NCBI RefSeq assembly: GCF_000421185.1
Contig: NZ_ATWJ01000009.1
Span: 374,868 to 438,867, forward strand
Length of the DNA: 64,000 bases
Direction of reading: 5' to 3'
Origin: Ornithinimicrobium pekingense DSM 21552
GTDB taxonomy: Bacteria > Actinomycetota > Actinomycetes > Actinomycetales > Dermatophilaceae
In this document: positions 1 through 18,244 of the stretch, one piece after another
Position numbering within the stretch: position 1 is the stretch's first letter
How the letters are laid out: each line of letters starts with the position of its first letter
The notes under the pieces: model-generated
Databases searched by the model: none
What the model was told of the DNA's origin: nothing
Seen by the model: the letters and a program-made list of their open reading frames with translations, nothing else
Program-made: the position numbers and the translations under genes

Positions 1-345
1 CGCCTCGTCCTCGACCAGATCACCGCGCTCAACAGCACCACCTCGGACATGATCCAGCGCACCTCCGAGATGCTGCGGGACAACTCCGTGGCGATCCAGG
101 AGCAGGCGGCCTCCTCCACGATCGGCCTGGAGCAGCTGCAGGCCGCCTTCGCCAACATCTACGAGACGATGGACGCGATCGACGCCTTCCGCTCCCAGGC
201 GCTGGACTCCATGTCCCAGACGATCGGCGTGCTCGAGGGCGAGGTGGAGAAGTCCCGCGGCTACCTCGACCGAGCCCAGCGCACCGACGCGCGCCTGGCC
301 GGCGGGGACCTCGACCTCGGGGACGTCCCCCCGACGCGCCGATGA
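1..345 (+). CDS. TelA-family toxic anion resistance protein, C-terminal fragment
   Basis: The gene enters from the left edge; 114 codons remain. The segments QAASSTIGLEQL and NIYETMDAIDAFRSQALDSM match the conserved C-terminal helical region of TelA/KlaA proteins. That family is cytoplasmic and all-alpha, and belongs to the Ter/Tel stress-response repertoire. The direct biochemical role of TelA is not settled; tellurite tolerance is the name-giving phenotype. The stop is 19 bases before the next start, which has its own ribosome site, so this is probably an early gene of the kinase operon downstream. Family assignment is firm from the signature; membership in the same transcript is inferred from spacing. 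Confidence 0.82.
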   Translation, partial: RLVLDQITALNSTTSDMIQRTSEMLRDNSVAIQEQAASSTIGLEQLQAAFANIYETMDAIDAFRSQALDSMSQTIGVLEGEVEKSRGYLDRAQRTDARLAGGDLDLGDVPPTRR

Positions 346-364
346 GCCGGAGGCGCTGAGGAGC

Positions 365-973
365 ATGGGGTTCTCCGACCTGCTGGACCGCATGCTCGGG
401 CGGGCACCGGCGCAGGAGCAGGAGCGTCTCGTCCTGCCGCCGCCGCCCACCGCCGACGACGTGTATGCGGCCCTGACCCAGACCGAGGAGCTGCTCGCCT
501 CCAGCGCGCTTCCCTCGGTCGTCACCGCGCGCGCCCAGCGCGTGGTCGACACGGTCCGAGACACCGTCCCGCGCCTGGGACGCGTCAGCGGCAGCGACCT
601 CGGCTACACGGTGGTGGCGACCGCCACCGACTACCTGCCCGAGGCGGTCGGCGCCTACCAGCGCCTCCCCCGCCGGTATGCCGACACCCGCCCCGTCGAC
701 GGCGCCAAGACCTCGCTGATGGTGCTGGTCGACCAGCTCGACCTGCTCGGCCTGACGATGGACCGGGTCTTCGACGCCGTCTACCGCGACGACGCCCGTG
801 AGCTGGTCGCGCAGGGCCGCTTCATCGCCGAGAAGTTCGGCAGCTCAGGCACCGGCGGCCGGCTGCGGATCACCGACGACGACGAGGCGCCCCTGCCGGA
901 GCAGCCCGACGACCCCACCGGACCGGTCAGCCCCGTCTCCCCGCTCGCCCCGCCCGAAGGAAGGGACCGATGA
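365..973 (+). CDS. Conserved helical protein of the PknG cluster (copy A)
   Basis: A 202-residue protein of no recognised family. It is predicted mostly alpha-helical (about residues 25-165) with a Pro/Asp-rich tail. The core has the run VGAYQRLPRRYAD and the segment VDQLDLLGLTMDRVFDAVYRDD. Both recur in the protein encoded at 15700 (VGAFQRLPHGFA; VDELDLLGLTLDHAYDATRRGD), so the two are paralogues. The ATG is preceded by GGAGGCGCTGAGGAGC, a good ribosome site. The stop overlaps the next start as ATGA, implying translational coupling to the AAA+ ATPase. No signal peptide or membrane helix is visible. Function unknown; retention beside TelA, AAA+ and kinase genes suggests a cytoplasmic part of that system. 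Confidence 0.8.
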   Translation: MGFSDLLDRMLGRAPAQEQERLVLPPPPTADDVYAALTQTEELLASSALPSVVTARAQRVVDTVRDTVPRLGRVSGSDLGYTVVATATDYLPEAVGAYQRLPRRYADTRPVDGAKTSLMVLVDQLDLLGLTMDRVFDAVYRDDARELVAQGRFIAEKFGSSGTGGRLRITDDDEAPLPEQPDDPTGPVSPVSPLAPPEGRDR

Positions 974-2637
974 CCACCCAGCCGCTGCGCGAGGCGGTCG
1001 ACGTGCTCGCCCGGGTCGGTCGCGAGGCCGGCCTCGACGAGGGTGCCGTGCGCGCCGAGGGCATGGCCCTGGCGGCAGCCGTCCTGGAGCGCGCGACCGA
1101 CGCCATGGCGATGGCCCAGGCCTGGGGGCAGACCTTCGGCCGGCCGGCGGTCGACTACTTCGAGATGGTGCCGCGCGGCCGCCGCTACGGCTCGATCCCC
1201 ACGACGCTGCTCGGCACGCTGCTCGCCGAGTCGAGCCCCAGGGCCCACGGGTATGCCGTCGCGCTCGCCGACGTCGCGACCGCCGCGTGCACCGTGCCCG
1301 GCGCGGATGCCGACTCCGTCGGCCGGGCCGCCGTCGCGGCCCGCACCCAGCTCGCCGCCGCCGGCGTCTCCGGCCACTCCACCGCCGACACCCCCGTCCA
1401 CCCGCCCCCCACCCCCGACCGGGGACACGGTGTGCACGCCCCCACCCCCGACCGAGGACGTGGCCTGCCCCAGGACCCCGGGGCGCTGAGCCAGTGGTCG
1501 CAGGAGCTGCTGCACCGCGCCCAGGAGCAGGGCGACCGCGTCCGCCAGATGCTCGGCGAGATGGGCCGGCTCGGTCAGGCCGGCGGTCCGGGCGGTCAGG
1601 TGCCGCCCTACCCGCCGGGCACCGCATACCCCGACCCCGCGGCGGGCGCGCCCGACCCCCCCGCCACCTCTCCCGACCAGGTCGTGACCCAGCCCCCGCC
1701 GGAGGGGACGCCCGAGCCCGAGCCGCAGGAGCCGCCCGAGCCCGAGCGCTCCGTGGAGGAGCTGCTCGCCGAGCTCGACGCCCTCATCGGCCTGACCCGC
1801 GTCAAGGCCGAGATCCACCGGCAGGTCGCGGTGCTGAAGATGGACGCGCGCCGTCAGGAGGCCGGCCTCAGGGTCGCGACGCTGACCCGGCACCTGGTCT
1901 TCGTCGGCAACCCCGGCACCGGCAAGACCACGGTGGCGCGGCTCGTCGGCGGCATCTACCGGGCCCTGGGGCTGCTGAGCAAGGGCCAGCTGGTCGAGGT
2001 CGACCGCTCCGAGCTGGTCGCCGGCTACCTGGGCCAGACCGCGGCCAAGACCGCCGAGGTCGTGAAGTCCGCGCTCGGCGGCGTGCTGTTCATCGACGAG
2101 GCCTACAGCCTCAACGGCGACCAGTACGGCAAGGAGGCCATCGACACCCTGGTCAAGGAGATGGAGGACCACCGCGACGACCTCGTCGTCATCGTGGCCG
2201 GCTACCCCGAGCCGATGGCGGAGTTCGTCTCGATGAACCCGGGCCTGGAGAGCCGCTTCCGCACGATCATCGAGTTCGACGACTACAGCGACGACGAGCT
2301 GGTCGCGATCCAGCGGGTGCTCGCCGAGCGGATGGACTACGACGTCGCCGAGGAGGCCACCGAGCGGTTCCGGGAGATCCTGGCCGCCACCCCGCGCGGC
2401 CCGTCGTTCGGCAACGGCCGGTTCTCGCGCAACCTGCTCGAGGCGGCGATCGGCCGGCACGCCTGGCGCCTGCGCGACGTCGACGAGCCGACGGTCGAGG
2501 ACCTGCGCACGCTGCGGCGCGAGGACTTCGAGGACCGTGACCTGGTCGACACGACCGTCGCGCCGGTCGCGCACGCCGACCCGGCGCAGGACGACGTGGC
2601 CACCCAGGACGACCAGCCCGCGGAGGACGACCGATGA
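970..2637 (+). CDS. CbxX/CfxQ-like AAA+ ATPase
   Basis: A 555-residue protein with an N-terminal helical region (1-140), a Pro-rich linker (about 140-260) and a C-terminal AAA+ module. Walker A is GNPGTGKTT (313-321) and Walker B is VLFIDEAY (372-379). The set resembles CbxX/CfxQ and EccA-type ATPases, which remodel protein assemblies. Known relatives act on Rubisco or in type VII secretion; neither partner is encoded here, so the substrate is unknown and may be a cluster protein. The linker contains two 33-base repeats encoding TPDRGHGVHAP and TPDRGRGLPQD, related to the intergenic repeats near 29.1-29.5 kb. Start and stop both overlap neighbours by 4 bases. ATPase class is secure; role is inferred. 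Confidence 0.9.
   Translation: MTTQPLREAVDVLARVGREAGLDEGAVRAEGMALAAAVLERATDAMAMAQAWGQTFGRPAVDYFEMVPRGRRYGSIPTTLLGTLLAESSPRAHGYAVALADVATAACTVPGADADSVGRAAVAARTQLAAAGVSGHSTADTPVHPPPTPDRGHGVHAPTPDRGRGLPQDPGALSQWSQELLHRAQEQGDRVRQMLGEMGRLGQAGGPGGQVPPYPPGTAYPDPAAGAPDPPATSPDQVVTQPPPEGTPEPEPQEPPEPERSVEELLAELDALIGLTRVKAEIHRQVAVLKMDARRQEAGLRVATLTRHLVFVGNPGTGKTTVARLVGGIYRALGLLSKGQLVEVDRSELVAGYLGQTAAKTAEVVKSALGGVLFIDEAYSLNGDQYGKEAIDTLVKEMEDHRDDLVVIVAGYPEPMAEFVSMNPGLESRFRTIIEFDDYSDDELVAIQRVLAERMDYDVAEEATERFREILAATPRGPSFGNGRFSRNLLEAAIGRHAWRLRDVDEPTVEDLRTLRREDFEDRDLVDTTVAPVAHADPAQDDVATQDDQPAEDDR
1411..1470 (+). repeat. Two in-frame 33-base repeats in the AAA+ linker
   Basis: Two units begin with ACCCCCGACCG at 1411 and 1444, a 33-base step that keeps the reading frame. 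On this strand they resemble the reverse complement of the right-hand 32-base array at 29366-29538 (shared cores CGACCGGGGAC and GGTGTG). They fall in a Pro-rich, probably disordered linker, so expansion costs the protein little. Confidence 0.7.
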
Positions 2638-3923
2638 GCTCGCCGGCGGGCCGCCCCGCAGCGGCCGCGCAGGGGCAGGGGGCCCAGGCGTCGGCCCCGG
2701 CACCCGGCGGGGCCACCTCCCAGGGCGCCGCGACCCAGTCGACCCAGAACGCTCCGGCGCAGGCCGGCGGCGGGCAGACGCAGCCGGCCCAGCAGGCCAC
2801 GCCCGCGACCCCCGACACGCAGCGGTCCAGCACTCCCCGGCTGCTGCGGGTCGCCCGCGGGCTGGCGACCGCCGCCGCCCTGCTCACCGGCGTCGTCGCG
2901 ACCGGCACCTTCGACACCGGCGGGGTCAACAGCACACCCAACGTCATCGCCGAGCAGTGGGTCGCCGCGGAGGAGGCCCGTGTGGAGATCGCGCAGGCCG
3001 ACCTCGTCGCGGCCCGAGGCGTGGCCGAGGCGGTCGCCGGGCAGGACCCGGCCGTGGACCTCGAGCCGGCCCTGACCGCCGCCGCGGACGCCCACACCCG
3101 TTCCGGCGCCACGGGCGCACGGGCCGGCACCACCGCCGCCGACCTCGTGCGCACCGGCCTGCTGACCCGTGACGCGCTCGACGTCGCCGCCACCGACCCG
3201 GCCGCCGCGGCCGAGCTCTACGGCGCAGCCAGCGCCCTGGCGCAGGACGCCGGCGCCACCGCCGAGGACGTCGCCGGTCTGCACGCGACGGACCTGCAGA
3301 CCGGCTCGCGCTCGCTGCTGACCGCCGTCGTCGGGATGGTCTCCACCGCGCTGCTGGGCGCGGTCCTGGTCTGGCTGGCGCTGCGCACGCGCCGCATCGT
3401 CAACGTGCCGCTGCTGCTGGCCACGGCGATCACGGGCTGGCTCACCTACGTCTCGCTCAACCCCGGCGCGCTGCCCCTCAACATCGACCAGCGGGTCGAC
3501 GAGGCGACGACCGTCGCGACCGCGCTGCAGGAGGTGCGGCAGGCCCGCCAGGCGGAGTACGCCACGGTCCTGGGGCTGGAGGGCGCGGCCCTCGAGGACA
3601 CCGCCGGCTCCGCGACCGAGGCGGTGGGCGCGGTCGGTGAGGACGGCCCGTCGGCCGCCTGGGAGGCCGTGGTGGCCGGCCACGACGCGGTCACCTCCGC
3701 CGAGGGGCCCGAGGCACGGCTGGAGGCGGTGCGCGCGACCGAGGACGCCTGGGCCCAGGTCGACCTGCAGCTGCAGCAGCGCCTCGACCAGCGCCTGGAG
3801 CCGGCGACCGCCTCGATCGGGACCCCGGCGGCCGTCACCTCCGGGGTGGCCCTGCTCCTGGGCCTGGTCGCCGCGGCGGCCGCGTGGAGCGGACTGACCC
3901 GACGGCTGCGGGACTACAGGTGA
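2634..3923 (+). CDS. Four-helix membrane protein, GlnX-like topology (copy 1)
   Basis: 429 residues: a Gln/Ala/Pro-rich cytoplasmic N-terminus (1-80), membrane helix about 82-102, an extracytoplasmic helical domain (about 103-225), two adjacent membrane helices (about 226-247 and 252-271), a second extracytoplasmic helical domain (272-395), then a last helix (about 398-418) and a basic tail. This layout and length match GlnX (Rv0412c, about 440 residues), the membrane sensor of the mycobacterial GlnH-GlnX-PknG amino-acid sensing pathway. A PknG-like kinase is encoded four genes downstream. The GlnX link rests on topology and neighbourhood only; I cannot show sequence homology. No GlnH-type binding protein is visible. 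The start overlaps the AAA+ stop (ATGA). Confidence 0.72.
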   Translation: MSSPAGRPAAAAQGQGAQASAPAPGGATSQGAATQSTQNAPAQAGGGQTQPAQQATPATPDTQRSSTPRLLRVARGLATAAALLTGVVATGTFDTGGVNSTPNVIAEQWVAAEEARVEIAQADLVAARGVAEAVAGQDPAVDLEPALTAAADAHTRSGATGARAGTTAADLVRTGLLTRDALDVAATDPAAAAELYGAASALAQDAGATAEDVAGLHATDLQTGSRSLLTAVVGMVSTALLGAVLVWLALRTRRIVNVPLLLATAITGWLTYVSLNPGALPLNIDQRVDEATTVATALQEVRQARQAEYATVLGLEGAALEDTAGSATEAVGAVGEDGPSAAWEAVVAGHDAVTSAEGPEARLEAVRATEDAWAQVDLQLQQRLDQRLEPATASIGTPAAVTSGVALLLGLVAAAAAWSGLTRRLRDYR

Positions 3924-4002
3924 GCCAGGCCGCCGGCGGGGCGGACGACCACAGACCGGCACCCGTGCCGGGCGAGGAGGGACCAGTGACGAGGACGTGC
4001 CG

Positions 4003-5412
4003 GTGAGCGAGGACGACACGCAGCGGGGGCCCGAGCGCCCGATGCTCATCCTGGGTGACGACCTCCCGGACGTGGAGGACACCACCCCCGAGGAGCTGCG
4101 CCGCCAGCAGGAGGAGGCGCGCCGCGAGATCGAGCGGCAGCGGCGCGAGCTGCAGGAGGAGATCGAGCGCAGGCGGCGCGAGGCCGAGCGCGAGATCGCC
4201 GAGATGGAGGCTCAGAAGGAGCGCGAGCTGCGCGAGCGCGAGCGTGACCTCGAGCGCACCCAGAAGAAGCTCTACCGGCGCGAGTCCCGGCTGCTCAGCA
4301 CGGTGCGGCGCAAGGGCAGGCCGGTGCCGGAGCGGCTCGTCCAGCGTCCTGCACGGCCGCCGCTGCGCGAGCGGGGGCTGCGTCGCTCCGGGCTGGGCGT
4401 CTGCCTCGGCCTGGTCGCGGCCCTGGGGATCGGCGTCGCCGGGACCGCGGCCGGCACCGGTTCCGACCCCGAGACGGCCGCCGAGCTGGAGGCGATGGAC
4501 CGGGCCATGGTGCTGCACATGCGGTCCGGGCTCACCGCGGACGAGGTCGTCGCGGCCCGCATGGCAGGCCAGCCCCTCCCCTCCGCGGAAGACGGCTCGG
4601 TCCCCGGCGAGGCGTTCGTCGACGAGGCGGTGGCGCTGGCCCCGGACTCCCGGCGCTACGGCGAGCGGACCCTCGAGCGCATCGAGCAGGTGGCCGACGA
4701 GCAGACCGGGACCGTGCGGGCCTTGACCCTGTGGTCCCAGGCCCGCGACGAGGCCGGCTACGCGGTCGGCAGCTGGGACGTGGCCGACCTGCGCGAGGAG
4801 GCCGCCGACGAGGGCGCGGGTCCCCTGGTCCTGGGCATCGTCGGGCTCGTCGCGCTGCTCGTGCTGCTGGCGATGGCGGTCGCGGTCAAGGCGTGGGTGG
4901 CGGTGCCGGTGCTGCTCGTGGCGACCGTGCTGGGGGTCGGTGTGCTCCCCGCCGCGGCGACCGGTGTCACCAACGGCGTCGGGCAGGCCGCCGAGGACCA
5001 CGACGTCGCGTCGGAGGCGCTGGAGGACGTCTACGAGCAGGTCGGCCGGGACCTGGAGGCGGCCTACGGCGTGAGCACCTCCTCCTACGCGGGCCTCCCG
5101 GAGTACTGGGTCGAGGACCCCTTCTACGACATCCCGGAGCCGGGCACGCTGCAGGACTACCTGCGGGCCCGCGAGGCGGTCGGCGAGGCCGACGGTGACG
5201 AGGCCACCTATGCCGCGGCGGCCGACCTGGCCGCGACGGGCCGCACCGCCTTCGAGGCGCGCGTGCCGGCGGTCGAGGAGACGCGGGCACGGATCCTCGA
5301 CGGCCTGGCGGGCTCGGGCGACCGCGCCTGGCCGGTCCTGCTGGGCCTGGGCGCCGCCGCCCTGGTGGTCGCCGGGGTGGCGGTGTCCGGCGGGCGCAGG
5401 GAGGGCCGATGA
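4003..5412 (+). CDS. Four-helix membrane protein with N-terminal coiled coil (GlnX-like copy 2)
   Basis: 469 residues from a GTG chosen because GAGG lies 8 bases upstream; a GTG two codons earlier (3997) is an alternative. Residues about 28-100 are a highly charged coiled coil rich in RREIERQRR-like heptads. Membrane helices lie at about 130-150, 273-293, 297-316 and 443-462, with two extracytoplasmic helical domains between, the same plan as the preceding gene. The second outer domain has an aromatic patch (GLPEYWVEDPFYDIPEPG). The coiled coil could couple the membrane sensor to cytoplasmic partners such as the kinase or AAA+ protein. Function inferred from layout and operon position. The stop overlaps the next start (ATGA). 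Confidence 0.75.
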   Translation: MSEDDTQRGPERPMLILGDDLPDVEDTTPEELRRQQEEARREIERQRRELQEEIERRRREAEREIAEMEAQKERELRERERDLERTQKKLYRRESRLLSTVRRKGRPVPERLVQRPARPPLRERGLRRSGLGVCLGLVAALGIGVAGTAAGTGSDPETAAELEAMDRAMVLHMRSGLTADEVVAARMAGQPLPSAEDGSVPGEAFVDEAVALAPDSRRYGERTLERIEQVADEQTGTVRALTLWSQARDEAGYAVGSWDVADLREEAADEGAGPLVLGIVGLVALLVLLAMAVAVKAWVAVPVLLVATVLGVGVLPAAATGVTNGVGQAAEDHDVASEALEDVYEQVGRDLEAAYGVSTSSYAGLPEYWVEDPFYDIPEPGTLQDYLRAREAVGEADGDEATYAAAADLAATGRTAFEARVPAVEETRARILDGLAGSGDRAWPVLLGLGAAALVVAGVAVSGGRREGR

Positions 5413-6545
5413 GCACGCGGTATGCCGTCGCGCCGGCCGCGCCGGGGGCGCTCGGGGCCGACGTCCCCGCCCCCGAGCTGCTCGCCTACCTCGACGCGAT
5501 GCTGCGCTGGCGCGACCAGCGCCGCACCGAGCTCGAGGCGCTGGACCGCGCGGCGATGGAGCTGGCCGAGCCGCAGGAGCGCGCCGCCGTCACCCCGGAC
5601 GTGACGCTGTCGATGACGCTGTGGCAGGCCGTCGCCGACCGCCTCGAGCTGCTCCTCGCCACCTGGGACAGCGGCCGGGTCGGGGAGAACGAGCGCCGCC
5701 GCATCACCACGCTGGTCTGGGGCACGCTCGAGCAGCCCGGGTCACGCGCCGGCGCGCAGGCGCTGGCCGTCTCCCTGCCGGAGGCGTGCCGGCTCTCGGA
5801 CTCCCTGGCCACCTCGCTGCGCTCCCGGCTGCGCCTCGACGGGTCCGACCCCCGCACGACCGAGCGGCTCACCGCCCTGCGTGCGCAGGTCGCGCGCATC
5901 GCCGACCAGGTCGCGCTCGTCCCCGAGAGCCGGCGCAGCTCGGCCGCGCAGGCGCACGCCCTGCTGGAGCGCCGCGTCGAGGACGTCACCGAGCGGCTCC
6001 GCCGTGGCGCCGACGTCGGCGGCTTCCTGGGGCCGCTGGAGGCCGAGGCCGCCACCGTCGAGCGCGACCTCATCGTCGCCGCGTCGGCCCGCGCGCACGC
6101 CAAGGCCGACCACGCCCAGGCCACCCGCGAGGTCGCCGAGCTGTCCGCCCGTGGCGAGGCCGTCCTCGCCCTGGCCAGGCGCGCCCGCGAGCTGGTCACC
6201 CCCGCGCCCACGCTGGGCGTGCCCGACGTGACCCAGCTCGGAGCGGTGCCGAGCGAGCCCGAGGAGCTCACCGCATACCTGTCCCGCCTGGAGCGCGTGG
6301 ACCGTGCCCTCGGTGTGGCCCAGACCAGCTACGCCCAGGCGCTGGCGCGGCGCGAGGAGCTGGCCCTGCGCGCCAGGACGGTGCGCGAGGCGCTGCAGGG
6401 CGACGCCGACGCCACCGCCGCGATGGCCTCCCTCGCCCAGCAGGCGCAGGCCCTCCTCGAGGCCCGCCCGACCGACCTGACCAGGCTCGAGGCGCTGGTC
6501 CAGGCCCAGGAGACCTTCGCCCGGACGATGGGGGTGCGACTGTGA
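5409..6545 (+). CDS. Conserved coiled-coil protein upstream of pknG (copy A)
   Basis: A 378-residue, almost entirely alpha-helical, charged protein with no recognised domain. It is paralogous over its full length to the protein at 16272. Both begin with a (T)RYAVAP motif and share a WRxxRRxELxALD-like helix, VTxSMTLxxAxAxRxxLLLATW, LPEACRLSDSLA/LPDALRLSDALA and PxLGxPDVTxLGxVP. There is no signal peptide or membrane helix. It overlaps the membrane protein upstream (ATGA) and the kinase downstream (GTGA), so it is probably co-translated with PknG. A scaffold or adaptor between sensor and kinase is a reasonable guess, but nothing in the sequence proves it. Confidence 0.82.
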   Translation: MSTRYAVAPAAPGALGADVPAPELLAYLDAMLRWRDQRRTELEALDRAAMELAEPQERAAVTPDVTLSMTLWQAVADRLELLLATWDSGRVGENERRRITTLVWGTLEQPGSRAGAQALAVSLPEACRLSDSLATSLRSRLRLDGSDPRTTERLTALRAQVARIADQVALVPESRRSSAAQAHALLERRVEDVTERLRRGADVGGFLGPLEAEAATVERDLIVAASARAHAKADHAQATREVAELSARGEAVLALARRARELVTPAPTLGVPDVTQLGAVPSEPEELTAYLSRLERVDRALGVAQTSYAQALARREELALRARTVREALQGDADATAAMASLAQQAQALLEARPTDLTRLEALVQAQETFARTMGVRL

Positions 6546-11353: not shown

Positions 11354-12450
11354 GCGCCCGCTGTCCCGAGGGTCACCAGAGCGAGTCGCTGGACTACTGC
11401 GACGTCTGCGGGTCGCCGATGGGTGCCGCACCTGTGGAGGAGGCCGGCGTCGGTGCCGCGCAGGTGTCCCCGGCCCACGGTGCGGCCGCGCCCGGGCCCG
11501 AGCTGCCGGCGGTCGACGCGTCGCCCCAGGCCGCGACGCAGACGTGCCCGCACTGCGGTGCCCTCAACGTCGCCGACGCCCTCTTCTGCGAGGCCTGCGG
11601 CTACGACTTCACGACCGGCACACCGCCGATGGGCTCCGAGCCGGCACCCCCGGTGACGCCGGAGGCGGACCCGGACGGCCCGGACGGTGACGACGGCGGT
11701 GCCAGCGAGGACGGCGAGGCGGGGTATGGCGTCGAGCCTCCCCCCGACATCGCGCCGAGTGACCCACTTTCGGTGTCCGAGACGTCCTCGGAGGCGACAG
11801 AAGTGGGACACTCGGTGGAGTCGACCGACGCCTCGCCCGCTGGACCGGAGCCCGGACCCGCACCCGAGCCGCACGAGCCGCACGAGCGGGACGAGCTCGG
11901 ACCCGCGCCCCAGCCGCACGAGCCGCACGAGGCCGAGCAGCCCGCGGCCGCCCCGGCCGCCGCCCCCGCGGCCGCCCCGGCCGCCGTCCCCGCGCACCGC
12001 AAGGCACGGCATACCCCTCCCTCGCGCACCCTTGCCGAGGCCTGGGTGGTCGAGCTGTGGGTGGACCCCGACTGGTACGCCGTCCAGCAGACCGAGGAGG
12101 CCTGTCCCAGCGCCGGTGTGCCGGACACCGTCCTGCTCACCCGCAGCACCGCCCTGGTCGGCCGGCCGTCGGGCAGCCTGGGCGTGCGCCCGGAGGTCGA
12201 CGTGGGCGCCGACAGCGCGGTCTCGCGGCGCCACGCGCAGCTGACGAGCGACGGGCAGCGCTGGTGGGTGGAGGACCTGGGCAGCAGCAACGGCACCTTC
12301 GTGGGCACGGTCGGCGAGCCGCTGCCCACCGAGCCGCTCCCGCCGGGGCAGCGCGTGGAGATCGACCGGGACGACCGGCTCTACGTCGGTGCCTGGACCC
12401 GCATCGTCCTGCGGCAGGCCACGGAGTCCGAGCGCCGGGGCACGGGCTGA
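11350..12450 (+). CDS. Zinc-ribbon FHA-domain protein (copy A)
   Basis: 366 residues from a GTG overlapping the previous stop. Two Cys motifs (C5, C17, C20; and C66/C69/C80/C83 in CPHCG...CEACGYDF) precede a long acidic, Pro/Ala-rich linker (about 90-225) and an FHA domain (about 230-355). The FHA core residues are present: GR (271-272), SRRH (292-295) and SNGT (313-316). FHA domains bind phosphothreonine, so this is the natural substrate or reader for the kinase, as GarA is for mycobacterial PknG, although GarA lacks zinc ribbons. The linker DNA carries a nested palindrome. A paralogue is encoded at 17387. Last gene of the coupled run; the next gene has its own promoter-like site. Confidence 0.93.
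   Translation: MSARCPEGHQSESLDYCDVCGSPMGAAPVEEAGVGAAQVSPAHGAAAPGPELPAVDASPQAATQTCPHCGALNVADALFCEACGYDFTTGTPPMGSEPAPPVTPEADPDGPDGDDGGASEDGEAGYGVEPPPDIAPSDPLSVSETSSEATEVGHSVESTDASPAGPEPGPAPEPHEPHERDELGPAPQPHEPHEAEQPAAAPAAAPAAAPAAVPAHRKARHTPPSRTLAEAWVVELWVDPDWYAVQQTEEACPSAGVPDTVLLTRSTALVGRPSGSLGVRPEVDVGADSAVSRRHAQLTSDGQRWWVEDLGSSNGTFVGTVGEPLPTEPLPPGQRVEIDRDDRLYVGAWTRIVLRQATESERRGTG
11755..11815. repeat. Nested inverted repeat inside the FHA gene
   Basis: Outer arms CCGAGTGACCCACTT (11755-11769) and AAGTGGGACACTCGG (11801-11815) pair with one mismatch. Inner arms TCCGAG (11776-11781) and CTCGGA (11787-11792) form a second stem. Local GC is lower than the surrounding gene. It lies in the linker coding region and resembles a small inserted palindromic element. 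Confidence 0.65.
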
Positions 12451-12504
12451 CCCCGCGTCCGGCGTGACGCGGGCTGTCCGGGCGACGCCCGGCGTGCCGC
12501 ACGC

Positions 12505-12533
12505 TGTCAAGCCGACGGTGGGACGCCTAGAGT
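12505..12533 (+). promoter_or_regulatory. Probable leaderless promoter of the acidic-tail membrane protein
   Basis: TAGAGT at 12528-12533 is followed by 7 bases and then the ATG at 12541; no ribosome site fits between. A weak -35 candidate, TGTCAA (12505-12510), lies 17 bases upstream. Confidence 0.55.
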
Positions 12534-12540
12534 CGGGGGC

Positions 12541-13539
12541 ATGTCACCCCAGCAGGACGCGCCCTCCTCTCCCGGACGCCCCCCGAGCAGCCGAGGCCGG
12601 CTGCGCCGGTCCGGGCAGGCGCTCGTCCGGGTCGGCGCCGTGCTGCTCGCCATCAGCCTGGTCGTGGCCCTCGTGGGCGGCCTGACCACCCGAGGTCTGA
12701 TCAACAACCTGCGCGACAACTCCGCCGAGCTGCTCGACGGCACCGCCACGGTCTCGCTGTCGGCGGGGGCGCAGCGTGCGCTCTACGTGACGGGCGGGCT
12801 CGTCGCCCCCGGGGAGGACCTGCCCACCCCGGTGGAGGACATCGACTGCACGGTGTCCGGCCCGGGGGGCGACGTCCCGGTCCGCCACCTCTCCGACGAG
12901 GGGCAGCGCGTCGGCCTGGACAACCCGCTGGCGCGCTTCCAGGTCGTCGGCTCCTTCCGCGCCGCCGAGGCCGGTGATCACACGATCGAGTGCAACGGCC
13001 TGGGCGTCGTGGTGGCCCCCGAGGTCAGCCCCGCCGACGGCCTGCTGCGTCTGGGCGCCCTCATGCTCGGCAGCCTGGGGACCTTCGCGGGGGTCACGAT
13101 GCTGCTCATCGGCGGCATCCTGCTCCTCGTCGTGCGGCACGGCACCGACGAGACCGAGGACGACGGGTATGCCGTCGGCGACGGCGCCGAGCCCCCGTCC
13201 GAGGGGGCCGAGGAGTGGTGGGAGGACGAGACCCGCAGCCCGGCCGCGGTCCGCGCCGCCGACGGCCCCGAGGACGACACCGACGACGACACCGATGACG
13301 TCACCGACGACGTGGACGCAGAGACCGACGACGCGGACCTCGAGCTCGTCGGCGACGAGCTGGACGCCTCGGACGACGACTACGTCGAGCTGACCGACGA
13401 GGAGCTCGCCGCCCTCTCCGACGAGCAGATCGCCGAGCTGGTGGCCTCCGGCGCGCTGGTCTTCGTCGACGAGGACGGCGACGTCGCGCAGCGTGACGAG
13501 CCCTTCGACCAGGACGCGCAGAGCGACACCTACCGCTGA
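12541..13539 (+). CDS. Bitopic membrane protein with acidic cytoplasmic tail
   Basis: 332 residues: a short basic N-terminus, membrane helix about 30-50, an extracytoplasmic domain (about 55-160), a second membrane helix about 175-197, then a very acidic Asp/Glu tail of about 135 residues. The outer domain has two cysteines (in DIDCTVSGPGG and HTIECNG) that could form a disulfide. It shares GTATV..., CTVxGPxGxDVPV and AGxHTxxC with the next protein, so the pair arose by duplication. The tail ends in helical motifs LTDEELAALSDEQIAELV. It lies directly downstream of the FHA gene in the same direction, so a link with the kinase system is plausible. Function unknown. Confidence 0.8.
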   Translation: MSPQQDAPSSPGRPPSSRGRLRRSGQALVRVGAVLLAISLVVALVGGLTTRGLINNLRDNSAELLDGTATVSLSAGAQRALYVTGGLVAPGEDLPTPVEDIDCTVSGPGGDVPVRHLSDEGQRVGLDNPLARFQVVGSFRAAEAGDHTIECNGLGVVVAPEVSPADGLLRLGALMLGSLGTFAGVTMLLIGGILLLVVRHGTDETEDDGYAVGDGAEPPSEGAEEWWEDETRSPAAVRAADGPEDDTDDDTDDVTDDVDAETDDADLELVGDELDASDDDYVELTDEELAALSDEQIAELVASGALVFVDEDGDVAQRDEPFDQDAQSDTYR

Positions 13540-13580
13540 CCTGCGTCCACAGGGGTCTGACACGGTCCCGCCCGGCCAGA

Positions 13581-13586
13581 TAGGTT
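13581..13586 (+). promoter_or_regulatory. Probable leaderless -10 box (TAGGTT)
   Basis: TAGGTT is followed by 7 bases and the GTG at 13594. Its spacing matches the other leaderless-type starts in the window and supports GTG 13594 over TTG 13585. Confidence 0.55.
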
Positions 13587-13593
13587 GGGACGC

Positions 13594-14463
13594 GTGAGCA
13601 CGTCACCGAGCCAGTACTCCTCCGGGCAACCCGCCGTCCCGCCCCGCCGCAGCGGCATGACGACCGCCGGCAAGGTCCTCTTCTTCGTCGGCCTGGCCCT
13701 GTCGGTCATCGCGGTCATCGTGGGGATCTGGGGCATCAACCGGGCCATCCAGGACTTCTCGGCGATGGAGGCCGACGCCTTCCCGGTGGAGGGCACCGCC
13801 ACCGTGCCGATGCAGGACGGTGACGTCCGCTTCATCCTGGCCGAGCCGGGGACCGACCCGGCCTGCACCGTGACGGGGCCGGACGGCGCCGACGTCCCCG
13901 TGGTCGCCGAGACCGCCCTGGACGACGCGGCCGCGCAGGAGGGCACGAGCCTGGTGGGCACCTTCACCGCGGGCGCCGCGGGCGAGCACACGGTCACCTG
14001 CGAGTCGGCGGCCGAGCTCAGCCCGGCCCTCGGCTTCCGCGACGCGATCGGCCTCGGCACGGCGGGCCTGGCCTTCCTCGCGCTCTTCCCGCTGGGGTTC
14101 ATCACGCTCCTGGGTCTGGTGCTCTGGCTGGTCGGCCGCAGCCGTGACCGCAAGGCGGCGGCCGGGCCGGGTGGCTACGGCTACAGCACCTCCTCCGGCT
14201 ACGGCGACGCCTCCTACGGGCAGGGCTACGGCCAGCAGGGGTATGGCGCGCCCGGGCCGGGCCAGCAGGGAGGTCTGAACGACGGACAGCAGGGGTATGC
14301 GGCACCGGGCCAGGGCTACGGCGAGCAGGGTGGCTCCGGCCAGGGTTACGGCGAGCGCTACGGCAGCCCGCCCCCGCCCGCGTCGAGCTCCGACTCCCCC
14401 TGGGCGGCCCCGCCTCCGCCCGGCAGCGACCGTCGGGAGGGCGGGGACGACGACCGGCGCTGA
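13594..14463 (+). CDS. Bitopic membrane protein with Gly/Tyr/Gln-rich tail
   Basis: 289 residues from GTG 13594. Membrane helix about 24-44, an extracytoplasmic domain about 50-145 with two cysteines (PACTVTGPDG and HTVTCES), a second helix about 158-180, then a low-complexity cytoplasmic tail rich in GYG, GQG and QQGYG units ending in Pro-rich sequence. The outer domain is paralogous to that of the preceding gene, while the tail is of the opposite type: uncharged and prion-like rather than acidic. Such tails can drive self-association. The stop is 3 bases from the end of the convergent YihY gene. Function unknown. Confidence 0.8.
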   Translation: MSTSPSQYSSGQPAVPPRRSGMTTAGKVLFFVGLALSVIAVIVGIWGINRAIQDFSAMEADAFPVEGTATVPMQDGDVRFILAEPGTDPACTVTGPDGADVPVVAETALDDAAAQEGTSLVGTFTAGAAGEHTVTCESAAELSPALGFRDAIGLGTAGLAFLALFPLGFITLLGLVLWLVGRSRDRKAAAGPGGYGYSTSSGYGDASYGQGYGQQGYGAPGPGQQGGLNDGQQGYAAPGQGYGEQGGSGQGYGERYGSPPPPASSSDSPWAAPPPPGSDRREGGDDDRR

Positions 14464-14466
14464 GTC

Positions 14467-15543
14467 CTACCGGTCCGTCGGGTCGGGCTCGGCCGTCCCC
14501 TCCCGTGCCGCGGGTTCGCCTGGCCTCTGCGGGCCTTCCCGCCCGTCGTCACGTGCCGTCGGCGGTGGCCCCGCCGGGTGGTCGAAGGTGACCTCGACCC
14601 CCTGGTAGTCCTTGATCATCGTCGAGGCGGTGGCGTCCCGGTAGGTCTGCAGGTCGGCCTCGGTGAGCGGCACGCTCGTCGTGAACGGACCGAGCAGCGC
14701 CCGCGGCCACAGCCGTTTGACCCGCACCACGTTGACCTCGACGGCGAGCACCACCAGCTGGGCCGCGACGAAGATGAACACCACCAGACCCAGCACGACC
14801 GCGAACACGCCGTAGGTGTCACCGGCCCGGCTGACGATCTGGTTGGAGTAGGCGATGCCGAAGCGCTGCAGCAGCAGCCACCCCACGGCCGCCACGAACG
14901 CCCCGGGCAGCACGTCGGCGTAGCGCAGCGGGTAGGAGGTGCCCATCCACATCCCCAGGCTGAACACCAGCACCGCCACGAGGAAGCTGAACAGCAGGAC
15001 CATCAGCGGCACCATCCGCCGCAGCTCGACCCCGTAGGCCCCGGCCGACGTCGCCAGGACCGTGCCGACGGTCGTGCCGAGCAGCATCAGGCCGGCGATG
15101 GCAATGAGGGGCAGGGAGTGGATCGGCGAGCGCAGCGGGTCGGGGCGCTGGTGCCGCGGCACGGCCCAGCAGATGTTCATCATGTGCAACGTCGCCTGCG
15201 AGGCGCGGATCGCCGCCCAGAGGGCCACCAGCGCGCCGATGACCAGCGCCGTCGTGCTCCCGCCGAACCCCTCGCCGCTGATCTCCCGCCCGATCACCGG
15301 GAACTGGCCGACCGCCGTGGACAGGATCTGGCTGCGCAGCTCGGGCTCGCCGTCCAGCACGAAGCCGAGCAGCGAGGTGAACAGCAGCATCAGCGGGAAG
15401 AGCGCCAGGAAGCCGTAGTAGGTGATCAGCACCGACAGGTAGACGCCGTGGTCGTCGATGAACTTGTAGAGCACCGCCACCGGGAACCCCAGCCAGGGTC
15501 GCCGGCGCTGCAGCTCGTCGAGCCGTCGCGGGAAGGACGTCAC
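14467..15543 (-). CDS. YihY/BrkB-family inner membrane protein
   Basis: 358 residues with about six membrane helices. Family features are the early LYKFIDDHGVYLSVLITYYGF segment region, ALFPLMLLF and IYSNQIV-like motif (FGIAYSNQIV). YihY/BrkB (UPF0761, once annotated RNase BN) proteins are polytopic membrane proteins of unsettled function. The start is GTG. The C-terminal 50 residues are Pro/Arg/Glu-rich and cytoplasmic. The gene interrupts the two signalling modules on the opposite strand and shows no sign of belonging to them. Confidence 0.88.
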   Translation of the reverse strand: MTSFPRRLDELQRRRPWLGFPVAVLYKFIDDHGVYLSVLITYYGFLALFPLMLLFTSLLGFVLDGEPELRSQILSTAVGQFPVIGREISGEGFGGSTTALVIGALVALWAAIRASQATLHMMNICWAVPRHQRPDPLRSPIHSLPLIAIAGLMLLGTTVGTVLATSAGAYGVELRRMVPLMVLLFSFLVAVLVFSLGMWMGTSYPLRYADVLPGAFVAAVGWLLLQRFGIAYSNQIVSRAGDTYGVFAVVLGLVVFIFVAAQLVVLAVEVNVVRVKRLWPRALLGPFTTSVPLTEADLQTYRDATASTMIKDYQGVEVTFDHPAGPPPTARDDGREGPQRPGEPAAREGTAEPDPTDR

Positions 15544-15699
15544 GGTCCTGATTGTGACTCACCGCAGCGCCGAGCACCGGCAGGAGCGACCGGTATGCCG
15601 TTCACGTGCCCGGACCGGGCGACGCCCGACGGGGTGGAGCCGGGTCCGTCCGTCGGGTAAGAATGGGCCGACCTCACCCGGCAGGGGGAAAGACCACCC

Positions 15700-16275
15700 G
15701 TGAACGACACCACCGGCGTCCCGGACGCCGACCACCTCCGCACGTCCATCCAGGAGCAGGCCCGTCTGCTCACCGGCCCCGACGTCTCCGACGTCGTCCG
15801 CGTCCGCGTCAGGCGGGCGCTGCACAGCGCCGGGGACCTGCTCGAGCTCTCCGGCGCCGAGCCCGCCCGCGACGTCGCCGCGCGCACCGTCGCCTGGCTG
15901 GCGGAGTCGGTGGGCGCCTTCCAGCGCCTCCCCCACGGCTTCGCCGGCGGGCACGCCGTCGAGGGCGAGCCGGCACCGCTGCTGCGCATCGTCGACGAGC
16001 TCGACCTGCTCGGCCTCACGCTCGACCACGCCTACGACGCCACCCGGCGCGGCGACGACGCGGCCCTGGACAGGCAGCTCGACGTCCTGCGCGAGCGCTA
16101 CGCCGTCCGGACCTCCCCGGCCGCCGTCGTCCGCACCGCCGTCGTGCCACCGACCGACGTCGACCAGGAGGTGGTCGCCGACCGCGGCCTCGAGGTCGGC
16201 GCGGACGGCATACCTCGCGTGCCGGTGCCCGACCAGCCGGACGCGCACCACGAGACCCAGGAGCCCGCCCGATGA
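15700..16275 (+). CDS. Conserved helical protein (copy B of the 365 gene)
   Basis: 191 residues from a GTG preceded by AGGGGGAAAGA, a strong ribosome site, with a possible -10 (TAAGAAT) near 15658. The middle third matches the protein at 365 (VGAFQRLPHGFA, VDELDLLGLTLDHAYDA). The tail differs and ends in His/Glu/Pro-rich sequence. The stop overlaps the next start (ATGA). This is the first gene of a three-gene module repeating genes 2, 6 and 10 of the main cluster without kinase, phosphatase, VWA or AAA+. Function unknown. Confidence 0.8.
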   Translation: MNDTTGVPDADHLRTSIQEQARLLTGPDVSDVVRVRVRRALHSAGDLLELSGAEPARDVAARTVAWLAESVGAFQRLPHGFAGGHAVEGEPAPLLRIVDELDLLGLTLDHAYDATRRGDDAALDRQLDVLRERYAVRTSPAAVVRTAVVPPTDVDQEVVADRGLEVGADGIPRVPVPDQPDAHHETQEPAR

Positions 16276-17390
16276 GCAGGTATGCCGTCGCCCCTCCCCC
16301 GCCCGCCGAGCCGGGCATGGCACCGCCGGACGAGGCCACCGACCGCTTCCTCTCCGACCTGGCCCGCTGGCGGCTGCGGCGCGAGCACGAGCTGCGTGCC
16401 CTCGACGAGCTGACCCGCACCCACCCCGACCGGGAGGCCCTCAACACCGACGTGACGGCCTCGATGACGCTCTACCACGCGATCGCCCAGCGCCACGACC
16501 TGCTGCTGGCCACGTGGGAGGACGTCAAGGACGGCGGTGGCGAGCGCGAGTGGCTGGCCCAGCTCATCTGGGGCGTGCTCGAGCCCCCGGACGGTGACGC
16601 CGAGGCGCTGGCGCTGCCGCTGCCCGACGCGCTGCGGCTCTCCGACGCGCTGGCCGCCTCCCTGCGGGCCCGCGTCGACGCGGAGGAGGACGTCTCGCTG
16701 GAGCACCGCGTCGGCGTCCTGGGCGACGAGGCGGCACGGGTGCGCGCCGACCTGGAGCGGCACGGCCCCGGGTCGCCGGAGGACCTGCCCGGTCGGCTCG
16801 AGCAGATCGAGGCCGAGGTGGACCGCGCCCGGCAGGAGGGCGCGGACGGCGGCCTGGACCTGGCGGACGTGGGCGAGCTCGAGTCGCGTCTGGCGGCCGT
16901 GGACCGGGCGCTCATCGTCGCGGCGGTCAGCCACGCGCACGAGAACGCCGACCGGGAGCAGGCCGAGAGCGAGCGGGCGCACCTCGTCGCCCGGGGCGAG
17001 GCGGTGCGCAGCCTGGCCGAGCGCGTGCTCAACAGCGTGCAGCCGGCACCCAAGCTGGGCATCCCCGACGTCACCGCCCTGGGCGAGGTGCCGGAGGGCG
17101 AGGACGAGCTGGCCGCCTACGTCGCCAACCTCGAGCGGGTGGGACGGGCGCTGGACCAGGCGCACGCCACCTACGCGGCGGCGCTGGCGCAGTATGCCGA
17201 CCTCGCCGACCGGGCCGAGCGTCTCGCCAAGACGCTGGCCGGGTGCGGCGCCCCCACCAGCGTGGACCTGGCGGGGATGCTCACGGCCGCCAAGGAGTCG
17301 CTGCACACGCGTCCGGCCGACATCCAGCGGGCCTCGGCGCTCGTCGCGGCCCAGGAGGCCTACCTCGCCCAGCTGAGGCCCGACGCATGA
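16272..17390 (+). CDS. Conserved coiled-coil protein (copy B of the 5409 gene)
   Basis: 372 residues, charged and helical, full-length paralogue of the protein at 5409. It begins MSRYAVAPPPP, where the bases GGTATGCCGTCGC are the same as at the start of copy A. Shared blocks are LLLATWEDV, LPDALRLSDALAASL, a central coiled coil and KLGIPDVTALGEVPEG. It overlaps both neighbours as ATGA. Conservation of this protein with the helical and FHA proteins in two separate modules shows the three form a functional unit that can exist without its own kinase. Confidence 0.82.
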   Translation: MSRYAVAPPPPAEPGMAPPDEATDRFLSDLARWRLRREHELRALDELTRTHPDREALNTDVTASMTLYHAIAQRHDLLLATWEDVKDGGGEREWLAQLIWGVLEPPDGDAEALALPLPDALRLSDALAASLRARVDAEEDVSLEHRVGVLGDEAARVRADLERHGPGSPEDLPGRLEQIEAEVDRARQEGADGGLDLADVGELESRLAAVDRALIVAAVSHAHENADREQAESERAHLVARGEAVRSLAERVLNSVQPAPKLGIPDVTALGEVPEGEDELAAYVANLERVGRALDQAHATYAAALAQYADLADRAERLAKTLAGCGAPTSVDLAGMLTAAKESLHTRPADIQRASALVAAQEAYLAQLRPDA

Positions 17391-18244
17391 GCGACGCCGC
17401 GCAGCCAGGGCAGGGACACCGCGTCGAGCCGGCCCGGCCGGTCGACGGCCCCGAGATCGAGGAGACGGCGCAGGAGTGCCCGCACTGCCACGCCACCAAC
17501 GTCGGCGACGTCACCTTCTGCGGGTCCTGCGGCTACGACTTCGTCACCGGCACCCCGCCGCGGCCCGAGCGGGTGGCCGACGAGGCCAACGGCGAGGAGA
17601 CGCCGCCGGTGCCGACCGCGCTGCAGGCCGCCGAGCCGCTGGAGGCCTACATCGACCCCCGGCGCGACGCCGACGACATCGAGCTGGCGACGACCGCGGC
17701 GGAGGTGGGCCTGGACCCCGACGACCTGCACCTGCGGCTGGAGGTACCGCCGGCCACGCCACCGACCCCCGGCGAGACCTTCGTCGCGCACGAGAAGCCC
17801 GAGCACCGGCCGCCCTCCCGTGCGCACGAGGGCCCGTGGGTGGCGGAGGTGTGGGTCGACCACGCCTGGTACGCCACCCGCGACACCGAGCAGCCGGTCC
17901 CCGACGCCGGTCCGCCGGAGGTCGTGCCGCTGACCGGGGACAACCTGGTCATCGGCCGCACCAACGTCGAGCGCGGCCTGCACCCGGACCTCGACGCCGG
18001 CACCGACGCGGGGGTCTCGGTGCGCCACGCCCAGCTGACCGGGGACGGGCGGAGGTGGTGGATCGAGGACCTGGACACCTCCAACGGCACCTACGTCGGC
18101 ACCGTCGGGCTGCCGCTGCCGCAGGAGCCGGTCGAGCGGGGCCTGCGGGTCGAGGTCGACGAGGACGACCGCATCTTCCTCGGCGGCTGGACCCGTCTGG
18201 CCCTGCGCCGCGCCGACCTGCCGGACGACGACGCGGGAGCCTGA
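17387..18244 (+). CDS. Zinc-ribbon FHA-domain protein (copy B)
   Basis: 285 residues. One zinc ribbon (C31/C34 and C45/C48, with CGSCGYDFVTGTPP) is followed by a linker and an FHA domain about 150-275: VIGRTN, SVRHAQ and SNGTYVGTVGLPLP. The ribbon tail YDFVTGTPP and the FHA tail are nearly those of copy A (YDFTTGTPP). The protein lacks copy A's first Cys motif and its long Ala/Pro linker. It is expected to bind phosphothreonine proteins, possibly the same kinase targets. The start overlaps the previous stop; the module ends here. Confidence 0.92.
   Translation: MSDAAQPGQGHRVEPARPVDGPEIEETAQECPHCHATNVGDVTFCGSCGYDFVTGTPPRPERVADEANGEETPPVPTALQAAEPLEAYIDPRRDADDIELATTAAEVGLDPDDLHLRLEVPPATPPTPGETFVAHEKPEHRPPSRAHEGPWVAEVWVDHAWYATRDTEQPVPDAGPPEVVPLTGDNLVIGRTNVERGLHPDLDAGTDAGVSVRHAQLTGDGRRWWIEDLDTSNGTYVGTVGLPLPQEPVERGLRVEVDEDDRIFLGGWTRLALRRADLPDDDAGA

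Follow-up and report, generated by a model that had tools for sequence, protein, structure and literature searches.

A widely conserved extension of the PknG signalling operon, with loss and replacement of the sensor in the lineage of Ornithinimicrobium pekingense

Signalling through the much-studied Ser/Thr kinase PknG is known from mycobacteria and corynebacteria, in which it runs from GlnH through GlnX to PknG (PMC6069109, PMC9769921), and the regulation of the kinase has been worked out from this three-gene form; statements on these and all other cited papers refer to excerpts of them. The GlnX-GlnH-PknG set has been described as conserved through actinobacteria, and the excerpts mention no further genes (PMC6069109, PMC8546545). 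Neighbouring genes for a zinc-ribbon kinase, a PP2C phosphatase, and a stand-alone vWA protein have also been reported from actinobacteria, in another setting (PMC7159879). Here, we describe a ten-gene PknG operon at the start of a 64,000-nucleotide stretch of Ornithinimicrobium pekingense DSM 21552 (contig NZ_ATWJ01000009.1, positions 374,868 to 438,867 of the forward strand; 73% G+C, host genome 3.85 Mb), hereafter called the window, to whose numbering our coordinates refer. The operon is a widely conserved extension of the PknG system, whose sensor has been lost and replaced in the lineage of the window. No account of the ten-gene operon was found in the open PMC literature, with subscription papers outside the scope.

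The ten genes all lie on the forward strand and span positions 1–12450. The first encodes TelA (1–345, Pfam TelA 1.3e-24), of which only the 3' end falls in the window (the whole gene, L002:11909-13213, encodes 434 residues and starts upstream); it is the sole TelA match in the host genome. It is followed by hel202, a helical TelA-partner protein of 202 residues (365–973, no Pfam match at E ≤ 0.01), and an AAA+ ATPase of the CbbX/SpoVK/EccA type with an N-terminal extension of about 260 residues (970–2637; Pfam AAA and AAA_lid_6, Walker A GNPGTGKT, Walker B LFIDEA). Two proteins with four transmembrane (TM) helices come next: TM1, a degenerate GlnX with two periplasmic domains, assigned by hhalign and topology (2634–3923), and TM2, assigned by topology, which has an N-terminal coiled coil and two helical periplasmic parts and occupies the usual GlnH position (3997–5412). 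The all-helical protein coil (5409–6545), the signature of the operon by its co-occurrence with PknG, precedes PknG itself, which combines a zinc ribbon, rubredoxin, kinase (CDFKPDN, DLGG), and TPR parts (6542–8806; Pfam PknG_rubred, Pkinase, and PknG_TPR). The last three genes encode a PP2C phosphatase with an N-terminal zinc ribbon (8803–10074; Pfam PP2C_2 3e-14, conserved Asp/Gly motifs), a VWA protein with the metal ion-dependent adhesion site (MIDAS) DVSGS and a Thr-rich C-terminal tail, LDTASTKTTRV (10067–11353; Pfam VWA_3 and VWA_3_C), and an FHA protein with two N-terminal zinc ribbons (11350–12450; Pfam FHA 2.5e-11 and Zn_Ribbon_1, conserved Cys pairs). Six of the nine junctions are 4-base overlaps (970/973, 2634/2637, 5409/5412, 6542/6545, 8803/8806, and 11350/11353), the PP2C/VWA junction is an 8-base overlap (10067/10074), and gaps separate TelA from hel202 (19 bases) and TM1 from TM2 (73 bases). 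Frames, domains, and junction coordinates thus bear out the original prediction of ten co-directional genes joined mostly by 4-base overlaps; its extension of the operon to 18244 did not hold, as the operon stops at 12450 and other genes and a paralogous trio lie beyond. A promoter and terminator scan found none, using a consensus that does not suit actinobacteria.

Among 198 genomes sampled from the order, PknG_rubred exceeded its cut-off in 24 (25 loci), and all 25 neighbourhoods were read. One order genome (G328) and two family genomes below the PknG cut-off were left unmapped, and several genomes are present as two loci (e.g., L083/L203, L098/L209, and L171/L198), so that locus counts are not genome counts. 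The usual gene order was TelA-hel202-AAA-GlnX-GlnH-coil-PknG-PP2C-VWA-FHA, which was complete in 17 of the 25 loci. The other eight were the window, complete but for GlnH; four loci cut by contig ends (L076, L077, L079, and L086), which match the usual operon as far as they can be read; and three deviating loci, with GlnX-GlnH-PknG only (L088), the same plus FHA (L099), or no match to TelA, hel202, AAA, or VWA (L095). In the window's own family, PknG exceeded the cut-off in 72 of 149 genomes; of 20 family loci (5 from the same genus and 15 from others), 10 were complete, 9 were complete but for GlnH, and L171 was without TelA and hel202. The 49 coil loci in named genomes comprised 22 complete loci, 14 complete but for GlnH (L178–L191), 11 cut by contig ends, L224, and L198, which like L171 comes from Phycicoccus elongatus and, on a contig of 3.2 Mb, has neither TelA nor hel202 within 10 kb upstream of coil.

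At the class level, PknG exceeded the cut-off in 99 of 296 genomes, and 20 further loci were read. The full ten-gene form was found in families outside the order (L231, L232, L246, and L247). Shorter forms were GlnX-GlnH-PknG-PP2C-VWA-FHA in L241, L243, L245, and L250 (two of them with a weak match to coil) and GlnX-GlnH-(weak coil)-PknG-PP2C-VWA-FHA in the eight main loci of family f5, presumably Streptomyces (L059–L062 and L067–L070). The presumably mycobacterial family f6 had GlnX-GlnH-PknG in L071–L074 and L249, and one of its genomes (G859) has two loci, one of this three-gene type (L249) and one of the longer type (L250). The position of GlnX-GlnH varied, as the pair followed the PknG genes in L233–L235 and L237–L240 and lay on the opposite strand in L058, L242, and L244. 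Given these tiers, the operon is modular, with a sensor-kinase core, then coil-PP2C-VWA-FHA, and then TelA-hel202-AAA. The synteny of the PknG loci rejects the view of TelA, AAA+, and VWA as scattered genes and supports the predicted union of PknG, a GlnX-type sensor, PP2C, VWA, FHA, AAA+, and TelA in one conserved operon; the scatter of helical, AAA+, and VWA homologues away from PknG that would have refuted this prediction was not found, all 22 order genomes with coil being PknG-positive. As side observations, PknG is split over two open frames in L181 and L207, and L064, L065, and L066 of the large-genome family f5 carry a second, distant PknG-like kinase beside a VWA gene with a zinc-ribbon-like C-terminus.

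Between AAA and coil, the usual operon holds a four-TM GlnX and a lipoprotein-like gene. The latter is GlnH, since both members tested matched Pfam SBP_bac_3 and one matched the aspartate-binding GlnH 6h1u (8e-53). Adjacent GlnH is present in sister lineages. No GlnH gene adjoins the operon in the window, and the host genome has two matches to GlnH, 29–30% identical over part of the protein. GlnH is absent in L177–L191 (15 of the 49 named loci), which belong to Ornithinimicrobium, Serinicoccus, Mobilicoccus, Agilicoccus, Austwickia, and two contigs of metagenome-assembled genomes (MAGs) with other labels, as well as in L224 and in 9 of the 20 family loci. In a 54-row PknG tree, a single branch parts 19 GlnH-less from 35 GlnH-positive rows (SH-aLRT 100), with L177 and Ornithinimicrobium species as the rows nearest to the window; this tree was built with a quick method and no outgroup, contains long rows (L170, L189, and L247), and leaves out L181, L207, L223, and L224, whose PknG is split, missing, or low-scoring. 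Because loci outside the tree set have GlnH, we read the pattern as one loss; the window carries a derived operon that lacks GlnH, not the reference form. Of the PknG-GlnX-GlnH-GarA parts that the original prediction placed in this operon, the GlnX-type sensor is there, GlnH is usual in the operon and absent in the window, and the GarA/OdhI homologue is encoded at another place in the host genome. L177 is a contig labelled Acidobacteria (ATN4) that carries the operon with a PknG 85% identical to that of the window; it is probably a mis-binned Ornithinimicrobium contig.

The GlnX of the GlnH-less loci has changed in a selective way. The TM1 group aligns with GlnX by hhalign (99.9%, E 8e-32), and the NCBIfam GlnX model matches TM1 over its full length at E 8e-5, far below its cut-off; judging from this homology and from the four-TM topology with two periplasmic domains, TM1 and its orthologues are still GlnX. 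TM1 keeps the C-terminal R-x-x-[DE]-Y-R tail, its periplasmic motifs are gone, and the conserved periplasmic residues of GlnH-linked GlnX are mostly lost in TM1 and 15 GlnH-less relatives. Positions conserved in at least 90% of 42 GlnH-positive sequences from two locus sets were scored in 16 GlnH-less sequences, with the motif and retention counts for GlnX covering loci other than the family loci L157–L176. Retention was 21% in periplasmic domain 1 (20 positions) and 20% in domain 2 (14 positions), and elsewhere 94% in the stretch from the second TM helix through the loop to the third (3 positions), 82% over the fourth TM helix plus the tail (5 positions), and 88% for a single N-terminal position. 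The control values in GlnH-less loci were 97% for TelA, 88% for hel202, 96% for AAA, 93% for coil, 85% for PknG, 91% for PP2C, 92% for VWA, and 81% for FHA (25–33 sequences from L192–L225, scored in 15–16 GlnH-less sequences). The pattern [AS][RQK][AVSD]NN, the core of an extended conserved motif A-R-x-x-N-R-...-P-[VL]-G-x-x-Y-L, occurred in 56 of 67 GlnH-positive loci, with the other 11 keeping A-R-x-x-N-R by alignment, and in 0 of 16 GlnH-less loci. By these measures, the periplasmic face of GlnX has decayed selectively and its cytoplasmic face has been kept.

An acidic finger has been proposed as the GlnH contact (PMC9769921). We take the domain 1 stretch A-R-x-x-N-R-x-x-x-P-V-G-x-x-Y-L and the domain 2 stretch H-...-D-x-x-G-x-W to overlap this finger, the numbering of that paper being unmapped here. 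The A-R-x-x-N-R stretch of domain 1 and the H/D/G/W stretch of domain 2 may serve GlnH. The retained cytoplasmic residues (R and N between the second and third TM helices and the R-x-x-[ED]-Y-R tail) are likely the contact to PknG. Within PknG, retention in GlnH-less loci was 0.36 in the N-terminal linker (11 positions), 0.89 in the kinase part, and 0.79 in the TPR part. The linker corresponds to 6632–6820 of the window, and several GlnH-positive PknGs carry there an S/T-rich linker of the type SSNRLASAPLGSARA.

Regarding TM2, the expectation of two GlnX-like membrane proteins was supported for TM1 only. TM2 shares the topology, and hhalign gave 30.8% to GlnX and, over 187 columns, 90% to the TM1 group, so that a homology of TM2 to GlnX is at most weakly supported. 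TM2 has a long N-terminal coiled coil, and its AlphaFold2 model reached a pLDDT of 78.7; as a side observation, TM2 carries a conserved D-V-E-D-T-T stretch. The Ornithinimicrobium and Serinicoccus loci mostly add TM2, with TM1 alone in L181 and one more four-TM gene in L182. In L187–L189 (Mobilicoccus, a MAG, and Agilicoccus), a single degenerate GlnX was seen in the gap, with no further gene beside it; in L190–L191 (Austwickia), a composition filter listed no gene in the gap, and a weak GlnX match is present there. TM2 is a later addition.

The protein coil was found in 22 of the 198 order genomes, all 22 of them PknG_rubred-positive. Its co-occurrence with PknG had hypergeometric probabilities of 3e-27 by genome and 2e-12 by genus, which are overstated as the genomes are related, and the coil profile was built from PknG loci only. 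AlphaFold2 predicts it with confidence to be all-helical (pLDDT 89.4). A Propionibacteriaceae MAG, L224, encodes coil and PknG in one open frame of 985 residues (L224:9560-12514), in which coil profile positions 1–218 are followed by zinc ribbons, the kinase, and a portion of the TPR, without a match to the rubredoxin. This is the only coil-PknG fusion among the mapped loci with coil above 100 bits and comes from a single MAG. The gene order there is TelA, hel202, coil-PknG, VWA, and FHA. The fusion and the gene content of L224 suggest a joint function of coil and PknG in physical contact, and a TelA-hel202-coil-PknG-VWA-FHA set able to stand without GlnX and GlnH. In the linker that follows coil, the fusion has an N-T-S-V-F sequence similar to the substrate site published for PknG.

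The catalytic parts of the operon are intact. PknG matched the PDB PknG structure 2pzi at 6e-126, with PknG_rubred, Pkinase, and PknG_TPR all over their Pfam cut-offs, and its catalytic Lys (K203) and two catalytic Asp residues (D302 and D319) align with that structure; among 18 operon sequences compared, at least 94% keep each of the three. The PP2C motifs (D170-G171, D248, D323, and D368), the VWA MIDAS (D52-x-S54-x-S56), and the AAA+ Walker A and B motifs are likewise present and conserved, and N-terminal zinc ribbons are common to the PknG, PP2C, and FHA proteins. The AAA+ protein matched CbbX 3zuh (9e-58) and EccA1 9lur (6e-56) in the PDB and remained below the NCBIfam cut-offs for SpoVK, EccA, and CbbX alike. 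The PP2C gene beside the kinase gene implies reversible phosphorylation, with the FHA protein as the putative reader of phosphothreonine. The Thr-rich VWA tail is the best candidate phosphorylation target: the strict pattern [DE]-T-x-S-T-[KR]-T-x-R occurred in 83 of 112 loci, and most others were variants by a few residues, e.g., STKTVRV (the tail was missing or unreadable in L064–L066, L192, L224, and L236).

We favour, at about even confidence, an extended PknG signalling operon in which the kinase acts on a sub-membrane assembly and receives a GlnH-independent input in the window lineage. In operons of the usual type, GlnH, a lipoprotein that binds amino acids, would signal to GlnX with its two periplasmic helical domains, GlnX would relay the signal to the PknG TPR part, and coil would partner the kinase directly. 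PknG would phosphorylate proteins of its own operon, most likely the Thr-rich VWA tail, PP2C would take the phosphate off, and the zinc-ribbon FHA protein would read it. The output would be a sub-membrane assembly of TelA, hel202, coil, and VWA, which the CbbX-like AAA+ protein might remodel in response to phosphorylation. In the window lineage, a single loss of GlnH would have released GlnX from its periplasmic constraints with the cytoplasmic face kept, Ornithinimicrobium and Serinicoccus would have gained TM2, and the same kinase machine would answer a different signal. The rewiring of the input is well supported; who phosphorylates whom, the link between VWA and FHA, and the nature of the assembly are inferred. 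A bolder form of this reading is possible, though we lean somewhat against it: a natural sensor swap on a Ser/Thr kinase, in which the PknG operon of one lineage shed GlnH and its docking surface, kept the cytoplasmic coupling to PknG, and took on new membrane sensors, with PknG and coil driving a phospho-controlled TelA/VWA/AAA+ machine of which the mycobacterial three-gene switch would be a stripped-down case.

The strongest rival, which we regard as unlikely, is that the operon is an ordinary PknG-GarA/OdhI metabolic switch, with the extra genes localising or tuning PknG and with control of 2-oxoglutarate dehydrogenase as its output. In its favour, every tier has GlnX and GlnH beside PknG in the majority of its loci, the GlnH of the operon is clearly orthologous to the aspartate-binding GlnH of known structure (8e-53), and a GarA-like FHA protein is present in 145 of the 149 family genomes. 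However, this presence is independent of PknG, which is over the cut-off in about half as many of them (72 of 149), and the GarA/OdhI homologue of the host (L258, G000:C10:57777-58229) is unlinked to the operon. The published PknG substrate peptide has its site at TTSVF (PMC8546545), in place of which the GarA N-terminus of the window host has DPTTARIP; the TTSVF site was found in 0 of the 18 GarA N-termini that were readable out of 30 (9 PknG-positive and 9 PknG-negative). Because GarA/OdhI is present irrespective of PknG and without TTSVF, it appears not to be a PknG-dedicated partner in this family. The metabolic switch also leaves unexplained the strict synteny of the PP2C, FHA, VWA, and TelA arm, which is conserved after the loss of the amino-acid sensor. 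Similar [TR]-T-[AM] stretches occur in the GarA of PknG-positive and PknG-negative family genomes.

Less probable still is a Ter/TelA-type barrier that acts in membrane stress or against phage or xenobiotics, in which TelA, hel202, AAA, and VWA would form the sub-membrane structure and PknG and PP2C would only gate it. TelA has been proposed to build sub-membrane structures against phage or xenobiotics (PMC7824862), and the distribution of the operon is patchy (24 of 198 genomes in the order). Matches to hel202 were found in 49 of the 198 order genomes, with strong ones only in operon genomes and in G305, which holds an operon fragment; TelA was within 1 kb in the same orientation at 10 of the 13 weak hel202 loci read, and 9 of these belong to the 11 loci whose genomes gave no PknG match. 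The helical proteins were thus tied to PknG in part, as expected for coil and for close hel202 homologues; hel202 as a PknG-specific family was rejected, its distant relatives lying near TelA in genomes without a PknG match. Against the barrier, PADLOC matched generic models for kinases, AAA+ proteins, and PP2C, on which ground an anti-phage system by PADLOC was rejected; TerC, TerD, and TerB are absent from the ten operon proteins; the operon content is constant, with no swapped effectors; and the core is kept without TelA in many lineages. At four loci in genomes without a PknG match (L126, L127, L128, and L130), TelA adjoins a run of two or three hel202-like matches. A second hel202 that seemed to overlap TelA (~130 bits) was rejected, as the profile had held untrimmed upstream sequence and the match was gone with trimmed profiles. 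That GlnH loss is mere decay, with the window operon on its way to losing function, is very improbable: GlnX is badly eroded and the PknG linker positions are mostly lost (0.36 of 11 positions retained), but the catalytic motifs are intact, the other eight proteins keep 81–97% of conserved positions across 15–16 GlnH-less sequences, the cytoplasmic GlnX residues are kept, and further four-TM genes were gained.

Several points weigh against the favoured reading of an extended signalling operon. Some parts are dispensable: TelA and hel202 are absent in Phycicoccus elongatus (L198), L224 has no match to AAA, GlnX, GlnH, or PP2C, L075 of family f6 has PknG without GlnX or GlnH within the 20 kb read, and 2 of the 24 PknG genomes in the order (G404 and G437) have no coil match. 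The VWA tail is missing in L224, L236, and L064–L066, and it adjoins VWA_3_C, so that its conservation may be structural. Foldseek gave no PDB match at E ≤ 0.001 for either coil or TM2. GarA/OdhI is present and may still be the main target, and, with a single GlnH loss, the coupled decay of GlnX is unreplicated.

Beyond the operon end, two membrane genes without Pfam match at E ≤ 0.01 (12541–13539 and 13585–14463) are followed by a BrkB-family gene on the strand opposite to the operon (14467–15543). Three forward-strand genes then repeat parts of the operon: hel202b (15700–16275; 40% identity to hel202 over 88 residues), coilb (16272–17390; 43% to coil over 354 residues), and FHAb, a zinc-ribbon FHA protein (17387–18244; 41% to FHA over 294 residues, Pfam FHA 2.6e-7). 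Since coilb scored higher against the coils of L177–L180 (216–220 bits) than against the window's own coil (191 bits), it is not a recent tandem copy. A second coil was absent in the other 197 order genomes and in the five same-genus loci.

Compared with known systems, the TelA gene and the following hel202-family gene recall the Ter/Tel stress genes, among which TelA pairs with XpaC, and the same arrangement occurs in genomes without PknG. The operon differs in being joined to a kinase and in having no TerC, TerD, or TerB among its ten proteins, the rest of the genome not having been searched for these; hel202 has no Pfam match to XpaC, a direct comparison being outside the scope. The MoxR-vWA ternary system is unlike the operon, whose AAA+ protein is CbbX/EccA-like and which has no MoxR-type or STAND Pfam match (VMAP itself was not tested). 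The AAA+ core and lid are shared with CbbX, SpoVK, and EccA, from which the protein differs in its extension of about 260 residues, its operon setting, and its scores below the cut-offs. TerY-P triads are relatives of the kinase-PP2C-vWA type. In the operon, the kinase, PP2C, and vWA genes are adjacent, with catalytic residues and MIDAS. Adjacency and zinc ribbons are shared with the neighbours described previously (PMC7159879), whereas the operon has a PknG kinase with GlnX/GlnH sensors, an FHA gene next, and a CbbX-like AAA+ protein.

Should the larger operon prove to be a working unit, PknG outside the three-gene form would have a dedicated phosphatase and FHA reader and probably dedicated targets. 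As a natural experiment, the GlnH-less lineage informs on GlnH-GlnX communication and points to two surfaces of GlnX. The closest system remains the PknG-GlnX-GlnH(-GarA/OdhI) pathway of mycobacteria and corynebacteria (PMC6069109, PMC9769921, PMC8546545), with which the operon shares the rubredoxin-kinase-TPR architecture of PknG, a four-TM, two-domain GlnX, and, in its usual form, a GlnH orthologue after GlnX. In contrast to this pathway, the operon has seven more genes, GarA is unlinked, independent of PknG presence, and without a TTSVF-type site, and the window combines the absence of GlnH with a degenerate GlnX and an extra four-TM protein.

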